The notes beneath the pieces are model-generated. The model was not told where the DNA came from and ran no database searches. It worked only from the letters and a program-made list of their open reading frames with translations. Made by a program: the position numbers and the translations under genes. From a virus, in IMG/VR virus record IMGVR_UViG_3300000553_000048, positions 1 through 56,581 of that record: DNA of 56,581 nucleotides. The stretch is one strand, 5' to 3'. Shown piece by piece: positions 3,860 to 50,677 of the stretch; position 1 is the stretch's first letter; each line of letters starts with the position of its first letter.

Positions 3860-4318
3860 TTAACGGGATTTGTTCTTTCTTCTTGCGAGGAGGCTAAACC
3901 ATAGAACAACTACTATTGAGTAACTTGGAACGCAGATTGCTGACACAACTACAGCTATCCCTGTCTTTAATATTGGAAAATTTGACAAGTATCCCAATAT
4001 TACTACAACACAAAGGATTAACGTTGTGAGCCTAAACATGGCCTTTGCGATAAGGTAGGTTTCCTCCTCTTGGATATTGTCATCCATGTTATTCCCTATT
4101 GTCCCTATTCCAAGAACAGAGGCCAAAAGCAGAACGGAACCGATAGCCCAACTTTTTTGAAACAACGCTATAGCCCCGTACAAGAATAAAAGGGTAGAAA
4201 TCGGTTTCAGAACTAACCATTTCCATTTTTTTGCAAGCTCCATTTCTCTATTGTTTGTTTCAAGAAGTATCCGTTTCGGGGGGTCGTTTTTAAATCCCAC
4301 ACCATCAGCGATAGACAT
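3860..4318 (-). CDS. Small multi-pass inner-membrane protein (lysogenic cargo)
   Basis: This 152-residue protein has about four hydrophobic helices (STLLFLYGAIALF, AIGSVLLLASVLGIG, LTTLILCVVVILGYL, IAVVVSAICVPSYSIVVVLW) and a basic C-terminus (ARRKNKSR). It starts after a good AAGGAGA site. It lies 26 bases upstream of the lipoprotein gene on the same strand, so the two likely form a cargo operon. I do not recognise the family. Confidence 0.65.
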   Translation of the reverse strand: MSIADGVGFKNDPPKRILLETNNREMELAKKWKWLVLKPISTLLFLYGAIALFQKSWAIGSVLLLASVLGIGTIGNNMDDNIQEEETYLIAKAMFRLTTLILCVVVILGYLSNFPILKTGIAVVVSAICVPSYSIVVVLWFSLLARRKNKSR

Positions 4319-4330
4319 TCCCTTTCTCCT

Positions 4331-4690
4331 TTAAGGCCTCTCTTGAAATCGCGAACTGATTCGAGGAAAAAGCGGCCATTTTAAGCAGAGTTTAAGATAC
4401 AGTTTGGACCCGTGTCCAAAATTGGAGGCGGCTACTCCCTTCTTATCTACAACCAGATTTCTAATTACCATCAAGACGAGAATATGATTAGAAAAATTTA
4501 CCCCGAAAGTCCTGAATTTTCGACGGCCGAATTTTCGGCCGTCGAAGCCTTTGTTCCTTTTTTTGTTACTAAGCAGATTTATTCCGGAATTCTGAAAGAT
4601 AGTTCCGGAATAAAATGCTTTTCCTGAAAAAACCACAGCGTGGTATTCAGATGACCGCTCTCTTGGTCGATACTATCAACCGAAGTCCCA
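4331..4690. other. Non-coding stretch with strong inverted repeats
   Basis: I see no convincing gene here, although short frames exist on both strands. It holds a 13-bp perfect inverted repeat with a 2-base centre (4519-4531 and 4534-4546, core TTCGACGGCCGAA). Two copies of the palindromic TTCCGGAA box also occur (4582-4590 and 4603-4611 as TTCCGGAAT). These could be protein-binding sites or stem-loops at the junction between the repressor and cargo transcripts. Low GC outside the repeats suggests a foreign origin. Confidence 0.5.
4627..4644 (-). terminator. Terminator of the repressor transcript
   Basis: On the minus strand ACCAC-GCT-GTGGT is followed by a run of T (4627-4632 read as A on the plus strand). 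It lies about 50 bases after the repressor stop codon. The stem is short, so efficiency may be moderate. Confidence 0.5.
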
Positions 4691-34845: not shown

Positions 34846-35796
34846 ATGTCAAGTCCTGCAGCCACCGTTCTAACCCCGGCATCGATAACGACTGACCCGA
34901 ATTCCGCGGCTTCTGTCGCGACGGATCCGACCACGTCGACAGACCCGACGGCGGCCGGGGCGGTTTCGTCCACTACGGCTTTTCCGGGGGAAGATGCGCC
35001 GGCCAATGCAACTACCATCCCGACCAACGCGACGCAGGCCGGGACCTCAGCGACGAATGACGCGGCGTCTGCCAATCAATTTAGCAGCCTTATAAGTTCG
35101 GCTACGCCTCCGACCAACACGGCAACCACTCCTTCAAGCGCTTCGACAGTGGCAGGGCAGCTTAACTCTCTCTTGAGTTCTTCCTCTCCATATATTCAGA
35201 GCGCAAGGGCTTCCGGCACCCAGACCGCCAATGACCGCGGCTTGATCAATTCCAGCATCGACGCGGGTGCTGCCGAGACGGCGGCTATCAGTGCGGCAAC
35301 CCCGATTGCAGCGCAAGACGCGTCAACCAACGCGGCCCTGCAGTTGTCTGCACAGAATGCCAACCAGACCGAAACGGAAACCCAGTATGCGGCTCAGGTT
35401 CAGACAGCTGCCTCTGCCCAGGCTCTTTACAATTCGGCGACACTTCAGGAACAGGAAGGCGGTATCACTCAGCAGACAGCGGCTCAGGCTCAGGCTGCTA
35501 CGGCGGCGCTCCAAACACAGCTTACCCAGATGGGCGTGAATGTCTCCCTTGATCAGATCAATGCGGCCAGCCAGAGCGCTTATATCAATGCCGTCTCTCC
35601 GGTGATGACCGCCTATCAATCGGCATACGAAGCTATCCAGACTCAGCCAGACGCTCAGATGGACGCGGCGGCGAAGGCTACGGCCCTCGCTGGACTGCAG
35701 GCCACCTATCAGGCTCAGTTGACATCAATCAGCAATGTCTACGGCTACACGGTTGATTGGGGCGATACCGGCGCGGCAACGGCAGCGTCAGACTGA
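34846..35796 (+). CDS. Ala/Ser/Thr/Gln-rich virion protein (ejection-protein candidate), 316 aa
   Basis: The N-terminal 100 residues are disordered Ser/Thr/Pro/Asp repeats (ATDPTTSTDPTAAGAV). The remainder is an extended Ala/Gln helix (QTAAQAQAATAALQTQL). Such proteins in this position are usually internal virion or ejection proteins. The stop shares a base with the next start (TGATG). Confidence 0.55.
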   Translation: MSSPAATVLTPASITTDPNSAASVATDPTTSTDPTAAGAVSSTTAFPGEDAPANATTIPTNATQAGTSATNDAASANQFSSLISSATPPTNTATTPSSASTVAGQLNSLLSSSSPYIQSARASGTQTANDRGLINSSIDAGAAETAAISAATPIAAQDASTNAALQLSAQNANQTETETQYAAQVQTAASAQALYNSATLQEQEGGITQQTAAQAQAATAALQTQLTQMGVNVSLDQINAASQSAYINAVSPVMTAYQSAYEAIQTQPDAQMDAAAKATALAGLQATYQAQLTSISNVYGYTVDWGDTGAATAASD

Positions 35797-37577: not shown

Positions 37578-38483
37578 ATGGGATGGACAGCAGCGGCAGC
37601 GATAGGGGAAGGTTTGGCTGCGATTGGTGCAGGAGCGGCAACGGCGGCAGGTGCTATAGGTATCACCGGTGCCGCAGCTGAGATAGTGGGCGACGTTGCA
37701 ATGGGTGCTGTAGTCGGCGCGGTAGTAGGCGGGGTAAAGTCAGCGGTCACCGGCGGCAATATCATGCAAGGGATTGAAAGCGGCGGTCTGATTGGAGGCG
37801 TTACCGCTGGCATAGGTGGAGGGGTGAGTGCTGCGAGTGCTGCTATTGGTGGTACAGCGGGGGCTACTGGCTCCGCAACATTGACAGCGGAAGGCCTGGA
37901 TAGTTCGACGGCAAGCACCCTTCAAAACACCATCGACGCCCCGGTAAACTTGGGGTCAGTTACTGACACAGGGATTTCAAATCCTGCCACAACAACCATA
38001 GGCGGAAGCGATTTCACCTCAGCCTCGACAGATGCGGCGAACTCCGGAAACTCCGGGCTTATAGCAAATCTGAATTCCCCAATAGGCACAGACACAACTT
38101 CCCCCATGGCAACATCAGGTGGCGCGGTTAATTCTCCAAATTCTGGCGGCTCTTCAAGCGCTGGCGGTATCAACCTTGGCCAGTCGATGGGCTCAGCAGC
38201 GGTCCAGGGAGCATTCGGGCTTGTGACCGGGCTTGCAAAGGGAGTTGCGGCAGCAGACGCCACACAGACACAAAATAAATGGAATGCCGCCCAGAAGGTT
38301 GTGACGCCTACAGGTGTTGCACCGGCACAGGCAAACATCCAGGGAAAGAATTACGTCGATACGGCTCAGCTTGACGCTACGGCTGCAAACCCTGAACTTA
38401 TGGGATCTGTTTACAAGAACCTCAACACAGCCCCCACAACGTCGCCCACAGGAACCATAGCATCTCCAGGAGCAGCATCATGA
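37578..38483 (+). CDS. Gly/Ala-rich internal virion protein, 301 aa
   Basis: The N-terminal 100 residues are small-residue hydrophobic helices (GLAAIGAGAATAAGAIGI, VAMGAVVGAVVGGVKSAV, GGVTAGIGGGVSAASAAIG) suited to membrane insertion. Then comes a Ser/Thr/Asn-rich disordered middle and a short C-terminal helix. It resembles podovirus ejection proteins such as T7 gp14 in character, not in sequence. Overlaps its neighbour by ATGA. Confidence 0.6.
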   Translation: MGWTAAAAIGEGLAAIGAGAATAAGAIGITGAAAEIVGDVAMGAVVGAVVGGVKSAVTGGNIMQGIESGGLIGGVTAGIGGGVSAASAAIGGTAGATGSATLTAEGLDSSTASTLQNTIDAPVNLGSVTDTGISNPATTTIGGSDFTSASTDAANSGNSGLIANLNSPIGTDTTSPMATSGGAVNSPNSGGSSSAGGINLGQSMGSAAVQGAFGLVTGLAKGVAAADATQTQNKWNAAQKVVTPTGVAPAQANIQGKNYVDTAQLDATAANPELMGSVYKNLNTAPTTSPTGTIASPGAAS

Positions 38484-39235
38484 GCGGATTAATAGGAAGT
38501 GTAAGCGGTAATCCTCAGAACGTCGGGCTCGGCGGTCCTTTGCCGTCCACGCCTGGCGCTCCAGCCCAAGCGCCACCCATGCCAGTTTCGAAAGGCGGTG
38601 GAGTGGTCCCGGCTGGCGGTCTTCCTCCTTCGCCTGCCCCGGCAGCAACAGGGCAGCAGGCTCCTACTCCGGCGCGGCAGCCTCTTCCTCCTGTCCATCC
38701 GAGCCAGCAGGGAATGAAGCAGGACCTTATGATGTACGTCAGCAAGGGGCTTGATATTATCTCTTCCCCTCAGACCAGAGCAAGTATTGTCACGATGTTA
38801 AAACACGGAGACCCTGTATCTGCCCTGGCGAACACGTTGCTTATTATTGTGCAGAAATTGGATTGCGCGTCCAGGGCAAAGGGGGTTGAGATTGCCGATG
38901 CCGTGAAGCTGTACGGAGCCCATGACCTTCTCGCGGAACTGCTCAAGGTGATGAGTGCGGCAGGTATCGCGCATCTTACCCCTGATCAACAGAATCTGGC
39001 TTTCAGTGTCATGGTTCAGGATTACATCAAGGCTGAGGTCGCGGCTGGCAGAATCAACCCGGCCAAGCTCCAACAGCAGAGCGAGGCGGCTGCAGCCCAG
39101 GTAAGCCCAAAGATGCGGCAGCAAGCACAGGAATCGGCACAAAGGATTCAGGCTACAGCTGTAGCATATCAGAAAGGTCTCAGTCGGCAGCAACCAAGCC
39201 AACAACCGGGAGCGCAACAAGGAGCACAGCAATAA
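38480..39235 (+). CDS. Internal virion protein with Pro-rich N-terminus, 251 aa
   Basis: Residues 1-75 are Pro/Gly/Ala-rich and disordered. The rest is a helical domain (QDLMMYVSKGLDIISSPQT, GDPVSALANTLLIIVQKLD, LTPDQQNLAFSVMVQDYI), and the end is Gln-rich (QQPSQQPGAQQGAQQ). Likely a second ejection protein; coupled to its neighbours at both ends. Confidence 0.55.
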   Translation: MSGLIGSVSGNPQNVGLGGPLPSTPGAPAQAPPMPVSKGGGVVPAGGLPPSPAPAATGQQAPTPARQPLPPVHPSQQGMKQDLMMYVSKGLDIISSPQTRASIVTMLKHGDPVSALANTLLIIVQKLDCASRAKGVEIADAVKLYGAHDLLAELLKVMSAAGIAHLTPDQQNLAFSVMVQDYIKAEVAAGRINPAKLQQQSEAAAAQVSPKMRQQAQESAQRIQATAVAYQKGLSRQQPSQQPGAQQGAQQ

Positions 39236-40584
39236 TGGGACTACTCACGCAGGCATTGGCCGGTGCGGCTGAAGGTGGCGCTTCGGCTGAAGGGGCGGCA
39301 ATCACCACCCAGAACCAGCAAAACTTTCAGATGATGCTGGAAAATTCCAGGAATCAGGCACAGCAAAACCTTGTTCAGCTTTCATCTACCTTGCAGGCGC
39401 AGAATGCGTCGGCTCTGTCGGCCCAGAATGCTCAGCAGAATCTGAGCGCGCAGACAGTAGGCGTTGACAATAATGGCATCCCCATTACGCGGTCTGATTA
39501 CAGCAATATGACAGCGGACCAGAAAGGGGATGTTCAGAGCCCGCAGGCGTATGGAGCGCAGACCAATCTTGACTATACTCCTATCGGTATGAAGTCAGAC
39601 GGGTCTCCTCTCTTGCCTTCTGACCTGACTCCGGACGGGCCTCCCTCTGGCTCGATTCTCAATATCCAAATGCAGCAGGCCATGAATGCGGCGAATATCC
39701 AACATCTGAATTCTGAGACGTTCAAGAATATTCAGACCGGAAACTGGATGGATAATCGATACAGCGGTGGCTGGAAGGGCCAGTCTGCGGAGCAGATGCG
39801 CGCGGCTGGCATGTCTGAAATTGAGATTGCAAAGGCACTCCAACAGCAACAGAGTGGAGGAGGGGCAAATGGCGGCAGGCCGACGTCAGAGCAGATAAAA
39901 AGCGTCAACGATCTCAGGGACCAGGCTGACACCGCTATTTCAGCGGGACAGATTCAGAAGGGTAAAGATATCCTCGCTGAACGTAACCAGATGGCCGCTC
40001 AAATCGGGATGCCGTCCCTTGAATATGTCCAGGATACTCCGGCGACCACGAAGAATAAGGGACTTATTGACAGTACCCAGGTCCCGGATAAACCGGAAAC
40101 CGGCCATATCAGGCTTATGCAGAATCAGCCTGGACAGAACAACAGCAATCTTAATCAGTCTCAGCGGCAAGTTGAAAGCGGGAATAAAGATTTTTCTGTA
40201 AATGGGCAGCCGGTTACCTCGTCACAGGGCGCCAGGTATGCGATGCAGGTTATGCCGAATACTGCTGCTAATCCCGGATTTGGCGTCCGCCCGGCAGATC
40301 CGAAGATTCTTGCTTCTGGTAACCAGCAGGCTATTTCCGCTGAATACAACAGGGTCGGGCAGGATTACATGAACGCTCTTCTCCAAAAATATAACGGGAA
40401 TCTTCCTGTCGCTCTTGCCGCTTACAATCAGGGTCCAGGCGCAACCGATACGTGGCTGAATAATTCCAAGGGGGATTTGAATAAATTGCCTCCCGAAACG
40501 CAGACCTATCTTGTGAAAGTATTGGGGATGATGAATCAAAGCAAGTCTTCATCCGCAAACTCATCTTCGCCGAACCAAGGATAA
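39235..40584 (+). CDS. Virion-associated lytic transglycosylase (SLT domain)
   Basis: This 449-residue protein has a Gln-rich N-terminal 300 residues. An SLT domain lies at about residues 305-430: catalytic Glu314 in RQVESGN, then GARYAMQVMPNTAANPGFG and GNLPVALAAYNQGPG. It would locally open peptidoglycan as DNA enters, like the transglycosylase domain of T7 gp16. It directly precedes the giant polyvalent gene. Confidence 0.88.
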   Translation: MGLLTQALAGAAEGGASAEGAAITTQNQQNFQMMLENSRNQAQQNLVQLSSTLQAQNASALSAQNAQQNLSAQTVGVDNNGIPITRSDYSNMTADQKGDVQSPQAYGAQTNLDYTPIGMKSDGSPLLPSDLTPDGPPSGSILNIQMQQAMNAANIQHLNSETFKNIQTGNWMDNRYSGGWKGQSAEQMRAAGMSEIEIAKALQQQQSGGGANGGRPTSEQIKSVNDLRDQADTAISAGQIQKGKDILAERNQMAAQIGMPSLEYVQDTPATTKNKGLIDSTQVPDKPETGHIRLMQNQPGQNNSNLNQSQRQVESGNKDFSVNGQPVTSSQGARYAMQVMPNTAANPGFGVRPADPKILASGNQQAISAEYNRVGQDYMNALLQKYNGNLPVALAAYNQGPGATDTWLNNSKGDLNKLPPETQTYLVKVLGMMNQSKSSSANSSSPNQG

Positions 40585-40585
40585 T

Positions 40586-43500
40586 ATGGATCTTAACGCT
40601 GCATTTGGATCTCAGCCAAGCCCGTTCACCCCTCCTGCTTCTTCTGCGGGACAGCAGGACCAGGGGAAATCTGCGTCAATTGACCTTAATGCAGCTTTTG
40701 GTTCCCAGCCGGACCCTCTCGGAGGAAATAAAACTAATAGTCCCTCTGGTCCTCCCGGTCCCGTCGACCCGTCTTCTGATGACGTGAAGTATACCGGCGC
40801 TCCTGACCCTGGCATGACAGACCAAAATCAAGACAACCATTATTACAACGAATACGTTCAGAAGCCTGTTTCTTCATTTATTGGTTCTCTGGCAAAGTTG
40901 TATGAGATGTTGGGAGTCATGCCGACCGCTGCCGCAGTGGACAAGCTGACCGGCAACAATCAGGCAGTAGATACGGCAGGCCAAGCCTACGATACTGCTG
41001 CTCAATTCAAGGAAGATCAGCGTCCAGGCTCTGACGTCGGAGCACCCGGCCGTTTTGTCCGTGGGGTTGAAGATGTGGCACCTCTGGCGCTCCTGGGTCC
41101 GGAAGGATTTATTGCAGACGCCGCGGCTGAGGGTGGAGGCGATTCTCTCCGGTCCGGGCATGACCTTACGACCGCTGAATTGCAAATGGTGAAGGATGCG
41201 GGTTTTGCCGCCCTGTTCTCCAATGTTCCTATGGCTGCAAATTCCCTACTCGGATCCGTCGTGAAAGGTGCAGCTGTCAATACAGGTCTTTCTATTGCTG
41301 ATCAATATGCGCAGAAACTTCTGCTTAATTCCCGGGGGTACGGACAAGAGGCGTCTCAAATCAACCCGCTTTCCGCTGAAAATCTCGGTACCGGCGTGGG
41401 AATGGGCGTTATCTTCGGCGGTCACCAGTTTCTTGGAATGCAGAATGCAGCGAAAAGTCTTTCGAGTGAAATCAATACCTCAATCGACAACGGCGACATT
41501 ACGCATGACCAGGGCGTCCAGACCGTCCAGCAATCCGGATTACCCAGAGTTCTGCAACGGCCTATTATCGATTCCATTCTTCAGAAAAAGATTCTCGATG
41601 CCGGTAATATTGATGATGCCATAAGCGCGGCCAACGATGTGACAAATGCCGCTCCTGGCCCCGGCCCTGTTTTTACGGATGAGGAAAAAGCCGGGCACCT
41701 GGCGGAAGCTGCCCAGCGTCTTGATTTTCTGGAAAACAATCCTTCCCCGGATACCGACAACGAGCTCCAATTCCTTCGGATGAATTCCGAGAATCATGAC
41801 GCGCTCGTAGACAGATATAACCCTCAGCCTTCCGTGGCCGCTGAGTCGTTGCCTTGGATCTCTCAGGCAAACACCACGCCTCTTGATCTCTCTGGCGGCG
41901 ATATTGGTATTATTCACTCGCCGGTATCCAGTGACACCCCTTTCACTATGCGAAGACCGGACGATGTTTATTCTCCATACTCTCCGGACCTGGCGCAACA
42001 GCTGAACACGAAACTGATAGCTGACACTCCCTGGATTCACAAGACCGGCATGGAACAGGTTGACCCGGATACTGCGGCATGGTTGCAGCATCGGGTGAAT
42101 GCTCTTGATTATGCGCAGAAGCAGAACGAGCAACAGGCCCAATCTCCGGATGCCCAGACCCGCCTTGTCGCCTCTGTCCAGCGCGTAAACCTGCTTAATC
42201 AGATGTCTGACCTTCTCGTCAAGCAGTACCATGAAGGCCAGATGAACGGCTGGATCAACGATACCGCCGGGCAGAATATCACCGACAACAGCGGCCAAGA
42301 TCTGGGGTGGGTTCAAAAATCCAAACCTTTTGACGATCTCTCCGGGCGGCGAGACGGTGAGGGATGGGCTAATTTTCTAAGACGTCGCCAGACCGGCACT
42401 ATCCTTCCTGATGATCTTGAGTCGAAACTGAACCTTCTTCAGCAGCAAATGAAAGAAGGGGAGACCGGCTCCAGGTGGCAGAACGAAGACTTTGTTGACG
42501 CAAACGGCCAGACCGTGCCGGGTGATTGGGATGGCGTCAAGTCAACGAATCCCGACTGGTTAAAATCCGGCGTCTTGAAAGATGCCGGTAAGGATGGCAT
42601 CAACACTGTTATCGATAAGTCTCGGGCTGGCCTTCCGCTCACCGGCAAGCAAGCAGATGTATGGGCTGCGGTCAAGCAGGCCGCTGACGATGCTTACAAT
42701 AGCGACCCGCATATTGCAGCCGCAAACGAAGCTCAGCGGCTTCATGAGTCCGGTATCGATATCCACGCCCCTGAATCAATCCCTGTCGGCAATCTTTCTG
42801 AAGGCGACCAGGTTGTTGTTCAGGGCAAGGATGGTATGCCGGATCTTGTCACGCATAAGGGCTATGATGACCAGGGGCAGGCTATCCTGCAGGATGGTGT
42901 TACGATTCACGCTGACCCTTGGGATATGGTCGACTCGATGGGGGTAAAGCCTGCCGGCGTAAGTGTTAATGAAACGCCGGATGGTGAGACAAAACCTGTC
43001 TTGAGTCTCACGGATGAGACGCAAGCGTCCGAATATGGTAAGGCTAATACCGTATTTACTCAAGATGCTGCCGACAAAGCGAGAGCTCTGCTTCGGTCAA
43101 AATTAGGACAGCTCAACAGCGGCATCGATCCCGAATTAATGCAGGCCGGTATTACCATAGCCGGGTACCACGTAGAAGCTGGCGCCCGAAAATTCACCGA
43201 CTACGCCAAGGCTATGGTGGGAGATTTCGGAGAGAAGATAAAACCTTTCCTTCGTTCATTTTATGAGGCCGTCCGTCATTATCCTGGTATGGAAGATGCG
43301 GGATTGAGCGACCCTAAAGAAATAGAGGGTACCGACCTTGCTTCTATATCTCAAGGTCAATATAATGAATTGACACCACAGCAAAACCAAGACGGAGGTT
43401 TCTCAAATGCTGACATCAATAACACCGGAAATCTGGCACGAGATCGGGGCGACTCAGCAGTTGCGGACACGCTGGGCCAAGATGGCCTTCGTAATGGGAG

Positions 43501-46500
43501 CGGACCAGATGAACGCCTTGATCGACAAGGAATATCAGGAGATGATGGCCAGGGGTATATCTCACGAAGTGGCCTACGCATATCTGGACGTGAAGCCTCT
43601 GCTCTTGGAGAACGTAGCAATCTCTCGATACATCGTGCAGACGGACAATCACTCCCTGCGGAGCGCGTTGCCGGAAGTAGTCACAACGACGGAGGCGACC
43701 CGGTTGGCCTCTCGGGAAAATCCCTTCCTTACGAGGCAGCAGTTAAGCCAGCTACAGGGATTGCTGGCGGCCGACTTGGATTAACAGAAAAGATACTCCA
43801 ACAGAAAAAAGCCAATACTGGTAAGGTTGAAGGAAATAGCCTTGCCGATATCGCAAAAAACCTTCCTCTCTTACATCCTCACCAGCAAGAAGACGTTAAG
43901 TTTGCAGAAAATCGCTTTGCAAACCCTGACGGTCACGGTGTCATGTTTACCAACGGCACAGGCACAGGAAAGACCTTCTCTGCCCTCGGAATAATGAAGC
44001 GCATGGAGATGAAAGGGAAAGGTGAAATCCTTGTCCTTGTTCCGAACGATACCATTGCAAATGATTGGATTAAGGCAGGGAACCACTTTGACCTTGGGAT
44101 TACACGACTGAAGAACACAAAAGACAATGGCGAAAAAGGCGTCAGCCTGACTACATACGCAAACTTTGGATCGAACGACTCTCTCGCCTATCGCAAATGG
44201 GATCTTGTTGTTGCCGATGAAGCTCAACTTTTGGGAAGTAATGCGTCAGGCGATGCCACAAAGGCGCTCACCACCTTTAGGGCAATTACAATGCACCCGG
44301 AAGGTGCTTATGCGCGGCATACAATGCTGCACAGCGAGGAAATAGGACAACTCTCCTCTCTTGTGCGAGAAAAAGAAGCTGCCAAGGCAACTTTTCAGCA
44401 GTCTACTGATCCGGCTGAAAAATCAGTTGCCGAGAAGACAATAGCCAGGCTTGATCCTGCAATCAAAGAATTATCTTTTTCTCTCAGAGAAAAGCAATCT
44501 CAGGTCAAGCAAGAGGTCAAAGACGCCCAGCCTGACGGCAGATCGAAAGCCGTATTCCTTTCAGCAACTCCGTTTGCCTACGAAAAGAGTACCGACCTCG
44601 GGAATGGATACTTATTTCACTATCCGGTTGAGACGAATTCTGGCGGATATAACAGCGGATCCCCTCGCGATAGGTTTATGATGGAGCATTTCGGATACCG
44701 CATGAGATATAACAAACTCACTGCGCCCGAGGCAGAAGTCGACAGTGGGTTGATGCAACGTCAGTTCAATTCGTACCTAAAAAAACAAGGAGTATTGTCC
44801 GGTAGAATGCTGGATGTTCCTTTCGATTATGACCGGAAATTCTCCCTGATAGATTCATCTATCGGCAGACTGATAGATGACGGTATGGAGTTCTTGAACG
44901 AGAACCCTAAGTATCACGCGCTGAGCGCGATTCTGCATGACAAGTTTGATTACCTAAAGCGCCGGTTCCTTCTCGAGGCAATCAAGGCCGACCGAATCGC
45001 ACCTGAAATTCAGTTGCATCTTAACGCTGGTCGAAAGGTTGTGGTCTTCCATGACTACATCAAGGGTGGTGGCTTCAACCCCTTTGACTTCAGTGACCAT
45101 AGGTTTAACAGCGAGAGCGTTAATTATGAAGACGGTGACGGAGAGAAACAAAGCGTGCAGATTGGGCATCTTGTCCATGATTTTGGAGTAGAGCGCCCCG
45201 ACCTTGTCGGCCTGCCGATTGCAAACCTGCCAACACCGCTTGAATCAATGAGGAGGGCCTTTCCGGGTTTGCTTGAGGTGAACGGCCAGACGGTTTCAAA
45301 GCAACAAGTTCGCAACAATATAGCCACATTCAACGACGACATGAGCGGACCACAGGTGATGATGGTCCAGTCCGATAAGGAAGCCGGGTGGTCAGGGCAC
45401 GACACCACCGGCAAGTTTCAGAGGGTCCTGTTTAATCTCGGACTCCCGACCAGGCCGACCAGGGCCATACAGCAGGAAGGCCGGATATATCGAGACGGGC
45501 AGGCGTCTGACGCTCTTATCCGTTACGTGAACACCGGGACCAACTGGGAACGATGGGCCTTCGCCTCTACTATCGCGCATCGGGCGTCTACGGCTGAGAA
45601 TCTGGCTATGGGTGAAACGGCAAGGGCTCTCAAGGATGCCTTTATCGAGGGCTTTGAAGATTCAGGGTCTTTTCCCCCTGGTTATCCTGGCGAAGGTACA
45701 GGAGGTAAGGAACGTGACGCTGCGGCCAATGCTGCCCTGTCCGACTGGGACCGTGCAATCTCTCTCTATTTTTCTCAGCAGAAAAGAAATTCCCGGAACA
45801 AATCGGCAGAAGGGAAAGACTATTTTGCTACGCCTGAGCCTCTGGGAATGAAAATGGTTGAGTGGGCAAACCTGCGCGGCAGCGAGAAAGCACTTGAGCC
45901 TTCAGCTGGACATGGGGCTATTGCGCGATGGTTTCCGGAAAATACCGAAAATACCGTCGTCGAGCCGTCTCTTGAATTGGCCAGCCGTTTGGCTATGGTC
46001 ACAGATGCAAAACTGGTTAACGCCCCGTTTGAAAATCTCAATATCGTCAACAAGTTTGATGGCATTGTGATGAACCCCCCGTTCGGAACTGCTGGTAAGA
46101 CAGCTATGGATCATATCGAGAAGGCTGCGGGGCATCTGCGGGACGGAGGCCGTATCGTTGCCCTGATTCCGGCTGGTCCTTCTATGGATAAGCGGGTGGA
46201 TAATTTCCTTTATGGTACGGACGCAAAAGGGAAAATGATCAACCCAGATCTTCACCTTATTTCTTCGTATGATCTGCCGAGCTCTGTGTTTGAACGTGCC
46301 GGCACAAAGGTTTCCTGCCGTGTCTTGGTAATCGATAAACAATCTGATCCTGATATCGCGCAACGTCTCCAACAGACCGCCCCGAGGGATTACACCGGAC
46401 TTTCGATAAAAGAGTTCTTTGACCGGATTGAGAATAGCCAGGTCCCGGACCGGATCTCTCCGGTTGCAAATGAGCCATTACCGGAACAGCCAAAAGTCTA

Positions 46501-49500
46501 CACTCCGGACGAACTTATTCCGCCGGGAGAGAAGGGCGCGCTTCCATCTTCAAACCATGACATTGTCGAACATACGACGATGAAAGGGAAGGTTCTTACA
46601 GGAATTGTCCGGACGGATTTAACGAAAGATCAGGCGAAGGAAATCGACCCTTACACATTCAAGAAGGATGGAGGGTTCTTTATCCGAGAAAAGTACCTTG
46701 ATAATCCTGAAACGAAATACTCGATCGGCGATAATGCACCCGTCGAAACCCACACGCCAGAATCCTTTCACCAGGCAGCCACCGACGCCCTGAACGCTGA
46801 GCATGGCGGCCTCGGTCAGTTGATGCGGCATATCAATGTCATTCACGATGCTGATATTTCGGATGAGGTTAGGAAAGGGCAAGAAGGTATTCAAGGTTTC
46901 GTCCACGACGGCAAAGCCAACATCGTAGCCGATAATATCCCCAAGGATTGGACAGACCAGCAGATGACCGGTCTGATCAAGCACGAAGTCGCCGACCATA
47001 TTCTCAACCTTGGCCACGCGGACGCCGAGTATCAGAGTATTGAACGTTCGATGGATCTTATGCGCCGGGCTGGAAATCCAGTTGTCGTTGAGGCGTACAG
47101 TAGGGTCCCAGAGGGGACCAGGCCACAAGACGTCAACCGGGAGGCGATTGCTTACCTCATCCAGCATGCGCCCGAGCAGTCTATCGTGCAACGATTCGTT
47201 ACATGGTTCCGGGGAAAACTCCGTGCCCTGTCTCAGGCTATTCCGGGCTTTGATCGCCTGCGGGTTGCCACCTGGGCAAATAGGCTCACTCCTGACGACC
47301 TGATCGGGATGGCACATGATGCTTTAGTCCGGGCTCCTGCGGTCCTGGATAGAAAAGCCCTTGCCAATCAGCAGACCGGCAATATAGGATTAGGTAAAGG
47401 AGAAAATAACCATGGCAATGACACCGGAAGAGAACGAGGCCAATATCCAGGAAATCCTGCGGACCTGTCCAGGGATGACCAGGGAAAAGATAGCGGAGTG
47501 GGACAAGTCGGGCAAACCGATGACCAAAGAAACCTTGCAGCAGCACAGGGAAGCGGGAGTGAAGCGCCCGGTTCGTCCAAGTTTACAGGATGGTTTGGTA
47601 AGTCAGCACTAACTGACGAATCTGGAAACCCTCTTATCTATACTCATAAATCCAAGACTTTCGGGATGGATGACAATCCTGACTCTTGGATTTTCAATCC
47701 TGATAAATCTGGTCAACAGACCGGCTCTCCTATGTCTGGGATTGGGAGTTTTTTCGCAAGAAAAGAATCTCGTCCCATGGAACCGAATGTAAAATCCAGC
47801 GAATCAAAAGACTTCTATCTCCGTCTTGAGCATCCTTTGGAGATGTCCTCTGCCGACTTACCGCGATTTAATAACGTGGAAGAGGCAAAGGCCTGGGCCA
47901 AAAGGCAGCATGATCTTAACGGATACGACGGAGTCATGTTCACCGACCATGACGATGTGGTTATCTTTCACCATAATCAGGCGAAGTCTGCGGACTTCAA
48001 TAACGGTGAATATTCCAGGACCAACAACGACACTCGATATTCCATAGCAGACGGCAAGGGATTCCGGAAGGACGATGAAGACGAAAAGCCTGTTGCCGGT
48101 CCGGATGATATTCGAAAGCCCCTGACACAGCGTATCAACGACGCCAGCTCTCGGCTTGGTCAGTTTACCGATAAATCCCGGTATATGCAGGAGGATATCA
48201 AGCCAGCTGTCAAGGAAGCTGTCACCGGGCTGAAACTGGTATATCAAGGATTACAGAGCCTGGTTCATCCGACAGGCGTCAGTGAGGCTGCGGCAAAGGC
48301 AGGTAGCGCCCTGAATGCCGCTATGGGGGCGAGGAATCGCGGCGGCGATGTCTTCCGGGCGAATCTCGACAAGGCATATTCGGACCAGAAGGAATACACG
48401 TCAAAACTGGCAAAGATCATGGACCTGTCGACAACGTCGTCGGGGCTCCTGGCCGACAACCTTTTTAATAAGATGGACGTCCAGGGTCAGCACGATTTCA
48501 TTACCCGGATGGAGAAGGGCCAGCAGCAGCCGACAAAGCAGATGCAGGATATTGCGGATGTCATTCGTAAGATGTTCGACGCCAAGGTTAAGCAGGTCCA
48601 GGACCTGGGGACCGGGGCTTTGCAGAGCGTGATTGAAAACTATTTTCCGCACATCTGGGAAGATAAACTGAACGATCACCAGATACAGACGACTCTTTCA
48701 AAGACCAAGCTTGAGGGATCTAAGGCCTTCACTAAACAGAGGGTATTTGAAGATATTCAAGCTGGTCTTGATGCCGGGTTTAAACTGGTTTCCGACAATC
48801 CGCTCGACCTTGTTTTCCTGAAAATGCACGAAATGGATAAGTACCTGGTCGCGCATTCCGCCCTGCAGGAGATGTCAAAGTATGGCGTCGTGCGGATGAT
48901 TAAGGCGGGTGCTGATGTCCCAAAAGGTTTCAAAGTAATCGACGGGCCTTTCGGAGTCGTCACCAAGAAGGACGGATCCGCTTACCGGTATGCAGCGACT
49001 GACGATGTCCATCAGGTGTTTCATAATTACCTGTCTCAGAGCTGGTATAACAATAAGTATTTCGGCACAGCGTACACGGCATACATGGGAGCGGCAAACC
49101 GGCTTAATATGTTCCAGCTTGGCGTCGGTTCAATGTTCCATGTCGGCTTTGTCACCAATGACGCCGTTGTCGAGAATTGCGCTCTTGGGTTGAAGTCATT
49201 CACTGAGGGGAAGTTCACCAAATCAGCCAAGTATTTCATGGAGGCTCCGACGGCGCCAATAAAAAACTGGCGACTTGGCGGTAAGATCCTCGATGCGTGG
49301 GAAGGGCAAGGGCAATTCATGCCGGCCGTAATCAAAATGCTCGAACTGTCTGGGGCAAAGAATGGCCTAGATAATCGGTTCCGGATTGATTCAACGCAAA
49401 AGATGCAACAGGCCTTTGCAAATGGGAAACTCCTAAAGGGAATCTTTCATGCTCCGGCGGCGATCGTTGCCCAGATGACCAGACCGATAATGGAAGGGCT

Positions 49501-50677
49501 TGTTCCTCGTATGAAGTTTGCCGCATTCGCCGAGATGGCAAACCATTGGATGGAGACAAACCCGAACGCGACGCACGAAGAACTGCAGCAACAGGCTCAG
49601 CAGATTTGGAATAGGATTGACTCCCGGCTCGGGCAGGTCAATTATGATCGGCTCTATATCAATAATTCTGCCAAAAGCGTGATACAGGCCCTTGTCCGTG
49701 CTCCTGGGTGGACTGGTGGCACCATGCTTGAAGTTGGTGGTGCTGTTACCGATACCGGAAGTGCTGTGCTTGGTCTCCTGAAAGGGAATAAGCCGGTGAT
49801 GACTGACCGTATGGCTTACACGGCATCTCTATTACTCTGTAACGCCATTGCGACCGGGTTGCTCACCTATCTTTTCACTGGCGAAGCTCCGCACGGGAAA
49901 GACTTCATTGCTTTCCGGACCGGCGGTGTGGACGAATACGGAAATCCGGAACGCTGGACGCTGCCGACATACGCAAAAGACATCTACGCCTACTCTCAGC
50001 ATCCATTTGATACGTTGCTAAATAAGACTCACCCGATAATCTCAATGGGAAAGGATCTTATAAAAAACAGCGACTATTACGGGGTGGAGATCTGGCACCA
50101 GGACGACAACCCGCTTACCCAGTTGGCGCAGGCCAGCGGATATGTTGCCAAACAGTTTGTTCCCTTCTGGATGCGTGGCGCTGCCAAGTCGGCAGAGCGT
50201 GGTGACAGCCTTGCAGCTATGGCGGCTCCCCTTGTTGGCATCATGCCAGCCACAGGCGAACTGACCAAGACGGCGGCCCAGTCTGACATGAGCAACATCT
50301 ACAAGCAAACTGCGGCATTTGATAAAACCAGGACGCAAGCACAGTTTGACAAGTCAAACTTGCGGCGTGACATCATCCGCAAGCTGCGAATGGGCGACGT
50401 ATCGGGGAATGGTGATATCAGCCAGGCTTTGGCTGCCGGGACGCTGTCGCAGAAGGATGTGGTCGGTATCCGTAGAGACAGTATGGTAACTCCTGGCGAA
50501 ACTCAGTTCAACCGGCTGTCCTTGCCCCAAGCAATAACGGTTTACGAAGACGCGACGGACGAAGAAAAGGCAAAGTTCAAGCCTATCCTGATCCGCAAGG
50601 GGCAGTCTATCATGGCTATTCCTGTCAGTGAACGCGGCAACATTCAGCAACGGTACAACCAGGCTATCAGCCAGTAA
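40586..50677 (+). CDS. Giant phage polyvalent protein: helicase, DNA methyltransferase, zincin, ART-like, large C-terminal region
   Basis: One unbroken 3363-codon ORF. Two short repeats (DLNAAFGSQP) open it. A superfamily 2 helicase follows at about residues 1080-1700 (GTGTGKT 1124-1130, DEAQ 1211-1214, SATPF about 1326, QQEGRIYRDGQ from 1629). An adenine-type methyltransferase lies at about 1745-1930 (EPSAGHG 1771-1777, NPPFG 1830-1834). A zincin-like motif HEVADH starts at 2133. An ADP-ribosyltransferase-like domain lies at about 2330-2480 (KFTGWFGKSALTDESG, YDGVMFTDHDDVVIF). The C-terminal 850 residues are mixed helical with one hydrophobic segment (LLLCNAIATGLLTYLF). Polyvalent proteins are thought to be ejected with the DNA to protect it and attack the host. 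Two extra genes are nested in its linkers. Confidence 0.9.
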   Translation: MDLNAAFGSQPSPFTPPASSAGQQDQGKSASIDLNAAFGSQPDPLGGNKTNSPSGPPGPVDPSSDDVKYTGAPDPGMTDQNQDNHYYNEYVQKPVSSFIGSLAKLYEMLGVMPTAAAVDKLTGNNQAVDTAGQAYDTAAQFKEDQRPGSDVGAPGRFVRGVEDVAPLALLGPEGFIADAAAEGGGDSLRSGHDLTTAELQMVKDAGFAALFSNVPMAANSLLGSVVKGAAVNTGLSIADQYAQKLLLNSRGYGQEASQINPLSAENLGTGVGMGVIFGGHQFLGMQNAAKSLSSEINTSIDNGDITHDQGVQTVQQSGLPRVLQRPIIDSILQKKILDAGNIDDAISAANDVTNAAPGPGPVFTDEEKAGHLAEAAQRLDFLENNPSPDTDNELQFLRMNSENHDALVDRYNPQPSVAAESLPWISQANTTPLDLSGGDIGIIHSPVSSDTPFTMRRPDDVYSPYSPDLAQQLNTKLIADTPWIHKTGMEQVDPDTAAWLQHRVNALDYAQKQNEQQAQSPDAQTRLVASVQRVNLLNQMSDLLVKQYHEGQMNGWINDTAGQNITDNSGQDLGWVQKSKPFDDLSGRRDGEGWANFLRRRQTGTILPDDLESKLNLLQQQMKEGETGSRWQNEDFVDANGQTVPGDWDGVKSTNPDWLKSGVLKDAGKDGINTVIDKSRAGLPLTGKQADVWAAVKQAADDAYNSDPHIAAANEAQRLHESGIDIHAPESIPVGNLSEGDQVVVQGKDGMPDLVTHKGYDDQGQAILQDGVTIHADPWDMVDSMGVKPAGVSVNETPDGETKPVLSLTDETQASEYGKANTVFTQDAADKARALLRSKLGQLNSGIDPELMQAGITIAGYHVEAGARKFTDYAKAMVGDFGEKIKPFLRSFYEAVRHYPGMEDAGLSDPKEIEGTDLASISQGQYNELTPQQNQDGGFSNADINNTGNLARDRGDSAVADTLGQDGLRNGSGPDERLDRQGISGDDGQGYISRSGLRISGREASALGERSNLSIHRADGQSLPAERVAGSSHNDGGDPVGLSGKSLPYEAAVKPATGIAGGRLGLTEKILQQKKANTGKVEGNSLADIAKNLPLLHPHQQEDVKFAENRFANPDGHGVMFTNGTGTGKTFSALGIMKRMEMKGKGEILVLVPNDTIANDWIKAGNHFDLGITRLKNTKDNGEKGVSLTTYANFGSNDSLAYRKWDLVVADEAQLLGSNASGDATKALTTFRAITMHPEGAYARHTMLHSEEIGQLSSLVREKEAAKATFQQSTDPAEKSVAEKTIARLDPAIKELSFSLREKQSQVKQEVKDAQPDGRSKAVFLSATPFAYEKSTDLGNGYLFHYPVETNSGGYNSGSPRDRFMMEHFGYRMRYNKLTAPEAEVDSGLMQRQFNSYLKKQGVLSGRMLDVPFDYDRKFSLIDSSIGRLIDDGMEFLNENPKYHALSAILHDKFDYLKRRFLLEAIKADRIAPEIQLHLNAGRKVVVFHDYIKGGGFNPFDFSDHRFNSESVNYEDGDGEKQSVQIGHLVHDFGVERPDLVGLPIANLPTPLESMRRAFPGLLEVNGQTVSKQQVRNNIATFNDDMSGPQVMMVQSDKEAGWSGHDTTGKFQRVLFNLGLPTRPTRAIQQEGRIYRDGQASDALIRYVNTGTNWERWAFASTIAHRASTAENLAMGETARALKDAFIEGFEDSGSFPPGYPGEGTGGKERDAAANAALSDWDRAISLYFSQQKRNSRNKSAEGKDYFATPEPLGMKMVEWANLRGSEKALEPSAGHGAIARWFPENTENTVVEPSLELASRLAMVTDAKLVNAPFENLNIVNKFDGIVMNPPFGTAGKTAMDHIEKAAGHLRDGGRIVALIPAGPSMDKRVDNFLYGTDAKGKMINPDLHLISSYDLPSSVFERAGTKVSCRVLVIDKQSDPDIAQRLQQTAPRDYTGLSIKEFFDRIENSQVPDRISPVANEPLPEQPKVYTPDELIPPGEKGALPSSNHDIVEHTTMKGKVLTGIVRTDLTKDQAKEIDPYTFKKDGGFFIREKYLDNPETKYSIGDNAPVETHTPESFHQAATDALNAEHGGLGQLMRHINVIHDADISDEVRKGQEGIQGFVHDGKANIVADNIPKDWTDQQMTGLIKHEVADHILNLGHADAEYQSIERSMDLMRRAGNPVVVEAYSRVPEGTRPQDVNREAIAYLIQHAPEQSIVQRFVTWFRGKLRALSQAIPGFDRLRVATWANRLTPDDLIGMAHDALVRAPAVLDRKALANQQTGNIGLGKGENNHGNDTGRERGQYPGNPADLSRDDQGKDSGVGQVGQTDDQRNLAAAQGSGSEAPGSSKFTGWFGKSALTDESGNPLIYTHKSKTFGMDDNPDSWIFNPDKSGQQTGSPMSGIGSFFARKESRPMEPNVKSSESKDFYLRLEHPLEMSSADLPRFNNVEEAKAWAKRQHDLNGYDGVMFTDHDDVVIFHHNQAKSADFNNGEYSRTNNDTRYSIADGKGFRKDDEDEKPVAGPDDIRKPLTQRINDASSRLGQFTDKSRYMQEDIKPAVKEAVTGLKLVYQGLQSLVHPTGVSEAAAKAGSALNAAMGARNRGGDVFRANLDKAYSDQKEYTSKLAKIMDLSTTSSGLLADNLFNKMDVQGQHDFITRMEKGQQQPTKQMQDIADVIRKMFDAKVKQVQDLGTGALQSVIENYFPHIWEDKLNDHQIQTTLSKTKLEGSKAFTKQRVFEDIQAGLDAGFKLVSDNPLDLVFLKMHEMDKYLVAHSALQEMSKYGVVRMIKAGADVPKGFKVIDGPFGVVTKKDGSAYRYAATDDVHQVFHNYLSQSWYNNKYFGTAYTAYMGAANRLNMFQLGVGSMFHVGFVTNDAVVENCALGLKSFTEGKFTKSAKYFMEAPTAPIKNWRLGGKILDAWEGQGQFMPAVIKMLELSGAKNGLDNRFRIDSTQKMQQAFANGKLLKGIFHAPAAIVAQMTRPIMEGLVPRMKFAAFAEMANHWMETNPNATHEELQQQAQQIWNRIDSRLGQVNYDRLYINNSAKSVIQALVRAPGWTGGTMLEVGGAVTDTGSAVLGLLKGNKPVMTDRMAYTASLLLCNAIATGLLTYLFTGEAPHGKDFIAFRTGGVDEYGNPERWTLPTYAKDIYAYSQHPFDTLLNKTHPIISMGKDLIKNSDYYGVEIWHQDDNPLTQLAQASGYVAKQFVPFWMRGAAKSAERGDSLAAMAAPLVGIMPATGELTKTAAQSDMSNIYKQTAAFDKTRTQAQFDKSNLRRDIIRKLRMGDVSGNGDISQALAAGTLSQKDVVGIRRDSMVTPGETQFNRLSLPQAITVYEDATDEEKAKFKPILIRKGQSIMAIPVSERGNIQQRYNQAISQ
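43407..43784 (+). CDS. Nested gene A inside the polyvalent gene (+1 frame), 125 aa
   Basis: ATG 43407 is preceded by GGAGG with an 8-base spacing. The product looks like a folded helical protein (TPEIWHEIGATQQLRTRWAK, GADQMNALIDKEYQEMMAR, SHEVAYAYLDVKPLLLENV, TRQQLSQLQGLLAADLD). Codons end mostly in G or C, as in ordinary genes of this phage. In the same stretch the giant protein (residues 941-1067) is an unstructured Gly/Asp/Arg/Ser-rich linker. I take this frame as a real gene and the giant frame here as overprinted linker. Function unknown. Confidence 0.72.
   Translation: MLTSITPEIWHEIGATQQLRTRWAKMAFVMGADQMNALIDKEYQEMMARGISHEVAYAYLDVKPLLLENVAISRYIVQTDNHSLRSALPEVVTTTEATRLASRENPFLTRQQLSQLQGLLAADLD
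47412..47612 (+). CDS. Nested gene B inside the polyvalent gene (+1 frame), 66 aa
   Basis: ATG 47412 follows AAAGGAG at good distance. The product is helical and charged (MTPEENEANIQEILRTCPGM, TREKIAEWDKSGKPMTKETL, QQHREAGVKRPVRP). The giant protein over this stretch (about residues 2276-2342) reads as Gly/Asn/Asp/Gln-rich linker between the zincin and ART-like domains. The last 15 or so codons overlap the start of the ART-like domain and may be a run-on tail. Function unknown. Confidence 0.65.
   Translation: MAMTPEENEANIQEILRTCPGMTREKIAEWDKSGKPMTKETLQQHREAGVKRPVRPSLQDGLVSQH

Follow-up and report, generated by a model that had tools for sequence, protein, structure and literature searches.

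A reading frame of 66 codons that lies one frame off within a ~10-kb viral gene raises the question of whether it is a gene in its own right or an accident of the codons around it. Here we address this question for a stretch of viral DNA of 56,581 nucleotides from an IMG/VR virus record (the window), in which one giant gene contains two nested frames, termed gene A and gene B. Our preferred answer is that gene B is probably a genuine small nested gene that is translated. The features involved are the following.

40586..50677, + strand: gene for the giant polyvalent protein (3,363 aa), the host frame of the nested genes
43394..43398, + strand: Shine-Dalgarno (SD) sequence GGAGG of gene A
43407..43784, + strand: gene A, a nested ORF of 125 aa in the +1 frame, conserved in ~147 giants
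47396..47402, + strand: SD sequence AAAGGAG of gene B, spaced 9 nt from the ATG (SD score 6)
47411..47584, + strand: linker encoded in the giant frame by gene B's DNA, rich in G, N, D, Q and S
47412..47612, + strand: gene B, a nested ORF (P0003) of 66 aa with an ATG start, in frame +1 relative to the giant
47418, + strand: alternative ATG start of gene B
47585..48010, + strand: ART-like domain of the giant (ART-PolyVal, E 1.4e-4, below the cut-off, and alignment)

The host gene is of the DarB-like / PLxRFG type, and its product was recognized as a polyvalent protein by matches to SNF2/ResIII, MTS and ART-PolyVal and to PHROG 10691 (E 0). It contains a SNF2 helicase and N6-methylase module, a zincin-like region, an ART-like domain and C-terminal domains, and shares the SNF2-adenine methylase module and the zincin-like and ART-like domains with the polyvalent proteins of phages and conjugative elements. 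The Pfam ART-PolyVal match extends over ~47690-48010 and lies under the curated cut-off, while the start of the domain is marked by the motif WFGxSxxxDxxGNPL, common to the window giant and that of locus L050. The zincin-like region, upstream of gene B, contains HEVADH in place of the canonical HExxH; it is matched by no Pfam model and can be aligned to L039 and L050. Searches of viral contigs and of 399 genomes from a single order found no close relatives of the zincin-ART stretch.

Gene B is a complete ORF within a longer ORF, in another frame of the same strand, and has its own initiation signals (AAAGGAG, a spacing of 9 nt and ATG), as described in the initial annotation of this DNA. Its DNA read in the giant frame encodes HGNDTGRERGQYPGNPADLSRDDQGKDSGVGQVGQTDDQRNLAAAQGSGSEAPGSSKFTGWFGKSA, a low-complexity, hydrophilic linker, in agreement with the low complexity reported there. 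The location given for gene B, between the zincin-like and ART-like domains, holds in part: the linker is there, downstream of the region with the HEVADH motif, but the last ~9 giant residues over gene B already form the start of the ART-like domain. This conserved start, FTGWFGKSALTDESGNPL, shares DNA with the final codons of gene B, which is thus not entirely within the linker.

The best evidence that such nested frames can be genes comes from gene A, which is almost certainly real. Searching with the SNF2-methylase module, we obtained 80 loci from viruses and 69 from bacteria (designated by L numbers), and among 156 module-bearing loci examined gene A is present within the giant in 140, in the +1 frame in every case (140/140). 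An iterated profile added seven more, all in +1 (L112, L135, L139, L142, L149, L150 and L157, of which L112 had already been counted at E<1e-3). Gene A lies directly before the SNF2 domain, encodes 120-140 aa across L003-L157, and is carried by giants of phages and prophages from several bacterial phyla. A tblastn search also detected it in six distinct phage isolates (hosts Pseudomonas, Serratia, Klebsiella, Vibrio and Ruegeria), always within the giant and always in +1. The start codon is ATG in 138/140 cases, and 130/140 have an SD sequence of 4 nt or more. Across gene A the giant frame has no stops in 128/128 non-redundant cases, as against 5.5 giant-frame stops expected when the gene A codons are re-drawn. 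Pairwise identity over gene A is 31% in its own frame vs 20% in the giant frame, and codon position 2 of gene A is the most conserved position. Judged from these patterns of conservation, gene A is under selection in its own frame, and both frames are constrained. AlphaFold predicts an all-helical product (pLDDT 95, pTM 0.87), for which no significant PDB or BFVD matches were found, and no Pfam or PHROG family matches gene A. The SNF2-methylase module also occurs as a stand-alone protein of ~850 aa (L110, L113, L118/L141, L119 and L124); these stand-alone modules (Flavobacteria-type and a few other genomes) lack gene A.

Beyond gene A, nested +1 genes are very probably a general feature of these giants, located in their inter-domain linkers. 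We surveyed 145 non-identical giants for SD-led ORFs of at least 50 aa, with synonymous shuffles as the control. Protein-like ORFs in +1 numbered 161 vs 2.4 expected (an excess of ~70 fold), the +2 frame gave 38 vs 32 expected (no excess), and 136 other long genes from the same loci contained 4 such ORFs, three of them in an apparent piece of a broken giant. An SD sequence precedes the first ATG in 39/74 of the protein-like +1 ORFs vs 185/1139 of the others (p 6e-12). Most protein-like nested +1 ORFs lie upstream of gene A and few downstream, on gene B's side; the SNF2-methylase zone (112k codons) has none. The placement at domain boundaries proposed in the initial annotation is thereby upheld, as is its view that the two nested frames are more than coincidence, gene A being certainly and gene B probably a nested gene. 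Apart from gene A, the nested ORFs form small families, with homologues nearly all in the +1 frame of giants.

Several of these ORFs are distinctive. HNH endonuclease ORFs are present in +1 at L041:6678-7217 and L130:1636-2280 (PHROG 3377/374; E 1e-54 for PHROG 3377), the first within an intact giant, the frame of which is open through 179/179 codons, and the second within an upstream ORF at a locus where the giant appears broken. At L054:5262-5417 another nested +1 gene, of 51-52 aa, ends just before gene A to form a tandem pair; it also occurs in L055, L057, L058, L064, L067 and L086. DarB-like giants that lack gene A, those of L167 (Pseudomonas phage USP_25, ORF at giant nt 4262) and L165 (Pseudoalteromonas phage Y7, ORF at giant nt 4340), have an SD-led ORF in +1, 98-117 aa long, at a comparable position; the two ORFs, compared by eye, are perhaps related to each other. 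Unrelated nested +1 ORFs lie 3.7-3.8 kb past gene A at L047:13758, L090:13716 and L051:13746. Gene B is located 3.63 kb past gene A, near this distance, and the position ~3.7 kb past gene A is perhaps a variable slot for small genes.

The first alternative for gene B is that its +1 ORF arose by chance in a linker of low complexity, where the codon bias of the giant keeps +1 open and purine-rich codons (GGA, GAA, AAT) imitate an SD sequence and charged codons; we regard this as unlikely. The ORF alone does speak for chance. In 1,000 synonymous shuffles of the window giant, which preserve the protein and the codon usage (regional codon biases are not preserved), +1 ORFs of at least 60 aa numbered 10.9 vs 12 observed, and the gene B stretch was open in +1 in 60% of the shuffles. 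With ORFs of such size as frequent as expected, gene B as an ORF per se is ordinary. The open sense frames of the giant amount to 12 ORFs in +1 and 0 in +2; since +1 is the only sense frame that is naturally open, the relative frame shared by genes A and B, offered in the initial annotation as an argument against chance, is without weight. A survey for SD-led +1 ORFs against shuffled controls had been proposed as a further test. With the composition criterion dropped, our survey gave no excess in the zones other than the gene A slot (104 vs 93 upstream, 41 vs 43 in the module and 58 vs 56 downstream), so the argument fails on its literal criterion and chance gains a point; with composition included, the excess is ~50-70 fold.

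It is this combination of signals and composition that chance explains poorly. An ATG with a 6-nt SD sequence anywhere in the window giant has P ~0.10 in the synonymous shuffles. When protein-like codon content is required as well, 1 case is observed vs 0.001 expected (1,000 shuffles of this giant), and with the amino acids of the linker kept, just 0.5% of shuffles reach the composition of gene B while remaining open. By codon log-odds gene B ranks in the top 0.9% of +1 shadow segments (gene A in the top 0.6%), and five further +1 ORFs of the window score -0.16 to -1.0. The log-odds of gene B itself, 0.05 to -0.01 by table, is borderline (with a second table 5% of open +1 stretches equal it), which counts on the side of chance. 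Re-drawing the codons of gene B while holding its protein fixed leaves the giant frame open in only 1.1% of cases. In the post-methylase zone of the 145 giants, 8 protein-like ORFs with an SD of at least 4 nt were found vs 0.16 expected, and at SD of at least 6 nt there were 2 vs <0.04, gene B being one of the two, in counts made with bin tables that score gene B slightly lower. Chance is further favored by the lack of a gene B homologue in the slot, and disfavored by gene A, which makes the nested class demonstrably real.

The distribution of gene B bears on a second alternative, in which gene B, once a captured small gene, is now a relic: the initiation signal is kept, the product has no function and the DNA serves as linker. 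Gene B is a singleton in its slot: among ~150 giants no relative occurs there, and no B-like ORF is present in the equivalent linkers of L039, L050, L027 and L010. In viral contigs, phages and plasmids no close relatives were found except for a weak match to Milano_056, a stand-alone gene of an Agrobacterium phage (tblastn E 0.3; phmmer E 0.005 of 41k ORFs). The profile match is also weak (12.7 bits, E 0.28 of 41k ORFs), with 0/5,000 shuffles scoring as high. The similarity runs from the second ATG of gene B; the Milano_056 family has the same TPEE..PG(I/M)T..IAE..L..GVK pattern, with the alignment beginning at the start codon, and identity to Milano is 42% over aligned columns. Members of that family are stand-alone proteins of ~64 aa, whereas gene B is nested and lacks the Milano C-terminal part. 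The similarity is under the usual significance, and Milano_056 as a relative of gene B is thus suggestive, not significant. A weak match to PHROG 28291 (E 0.028) was not used as support, and the single Cys of the gene B product was counted against gene B, as was the overlap of its final codons with the ART-like start.

The singleton distribution would suit a relic, as would the fact that gene B has, in place of the C-terminal half of Milano_056, sequence in common with the ART-like start. However, the SD, start and frame of gene B are intact, and nested frames in giants can last over deep time, as gene A illustrates; we consider a relic rather improbable, a little more so than chance. Single-sequence AlphaFold modelling of gene B gives three helices (pLDDT 84 over residues 11-30), so the product may be a roughly three-helix protein, HTH-like in outline; a structure search found no significant matches.

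The third alternative, entry into the +1 frame by programmed frameshifting to give a truncated giant with a gene B tail, would account for the constancy of +1 across all nested cases but is highly improbable given the ATG and SD frequencies of gene A (138/140 and 130/140) and the enrichment of SD sequences before other nested ORFs.

Taking gene B as a genuine nested gene, ribosomes would initiate at its own SD on the giant mRNA and produce the 66-aa protein, while for ribosomes translating the giant, one frame off, these bases would encode a disordered spacer, a linker that would tolerate nearly any hydrophilic sequence provided that no stop arises. We infer that gene B is translated by such internal initiation and that it works with the giant or early in infection, perhaps as a small protein with a regulatory or accessory role alongside the injected giant. 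More broadly, the SNF2-methylase polyvalent giants would have a two-layer organization, in which linkers carry small +1 genes and gene A is nearly universal. Gene B would have been captured from a free-standing small gene at the zincin-like/ART-like junction, with its own C-terminus lost into the ART-like start.

The initial annotation further suggested that polyvalent giants arose through read-through of intergenic small genes. We give this idea slightly less than even weight; it fits the linkers (which read as a normal protein one frame off, with stops absent), the nested HNH endonucleases and the weak Milano_056 relative of gene B. Instead of read-through of pre-existing small genes, an existing linker may have been overprinted, since for gene A no intact stand-alone homologue was found among the loci searched. 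Under read-through assembly, domain genes would have been joined through one-off reading of the small genes between them, the linkers would be living small genes that are swapped between slots (HNH endonucleases included), each mRNA would yield an injected giant together with small partners made by internal initiation, and gene B would be a recent capture; this full model we hold only tentatively, at just under even confidence.

The giants are extremely depleted in cysteine, with 0.053% vs 0.53% in other long genes, and gene A is also low (0.148%); the window giant has 3 Cys in 3,363 aa. The N4-like virion RNA polymerase is cysteine-free, a property linked to passage through the tail (PMC3715699), and by this precedent the Cys-poor gene A product may travel with the Cys-poor giant. 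Three neighbors of the giant gene in the window (39235-40584, 37578-38483 and 34846-35796) encode no Cys and are candidate injected virion proteins. In the Dar system of P1, the small gene ulx lies beside darB, and in PHB04 a Ulx-like gene lies between the methylase and helicase genes; Ulx is listed as an aid to DarB localisation (PMC9024508). This placement and role suggest, by analogy, a similar type of role for gene A. P1 ulx is a separate gene whereas gene A is nested, and the identification of gene A as P1 Ulx was rejected on sequence (best E of the gene A profile 5.7).

Like known overprinted and overlapping viral genes, the frames described here are small complete alternative-frame ORFs with their own SD and start, set where the longer frame is disordered. 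Unlike them, a whole class of giants carries several nested genes, always in +1 and always in linkers, and the gene A family spans several bacterial phyla while being unannotated in the records examined. Overlapping or alternative-frame genes are not mentioned in Iyer et al. 2017 (PMC5512222), as judged by a text search, nor are linkers treated there as dual-coding; no literature on overlapping genes in polyvalent/DarB giants was found in a search largely confined to papers outside subscription journals. Gene callers drop ORFs nested in longer ones, and gene A and dozens of small genes have therefore stayed outside Pfam and PHROGs. If the proposed organization is correct, both frames would be coding in the disordered linkers of these giant phage proteins that are injected. 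The linkers would then offer a concrete model for the assembly of multi-domain giants, new small partners in anti-defence or packaging and, with one nested gene traceable through ~147 giants, one of the clearest systems for dual-frame selection.
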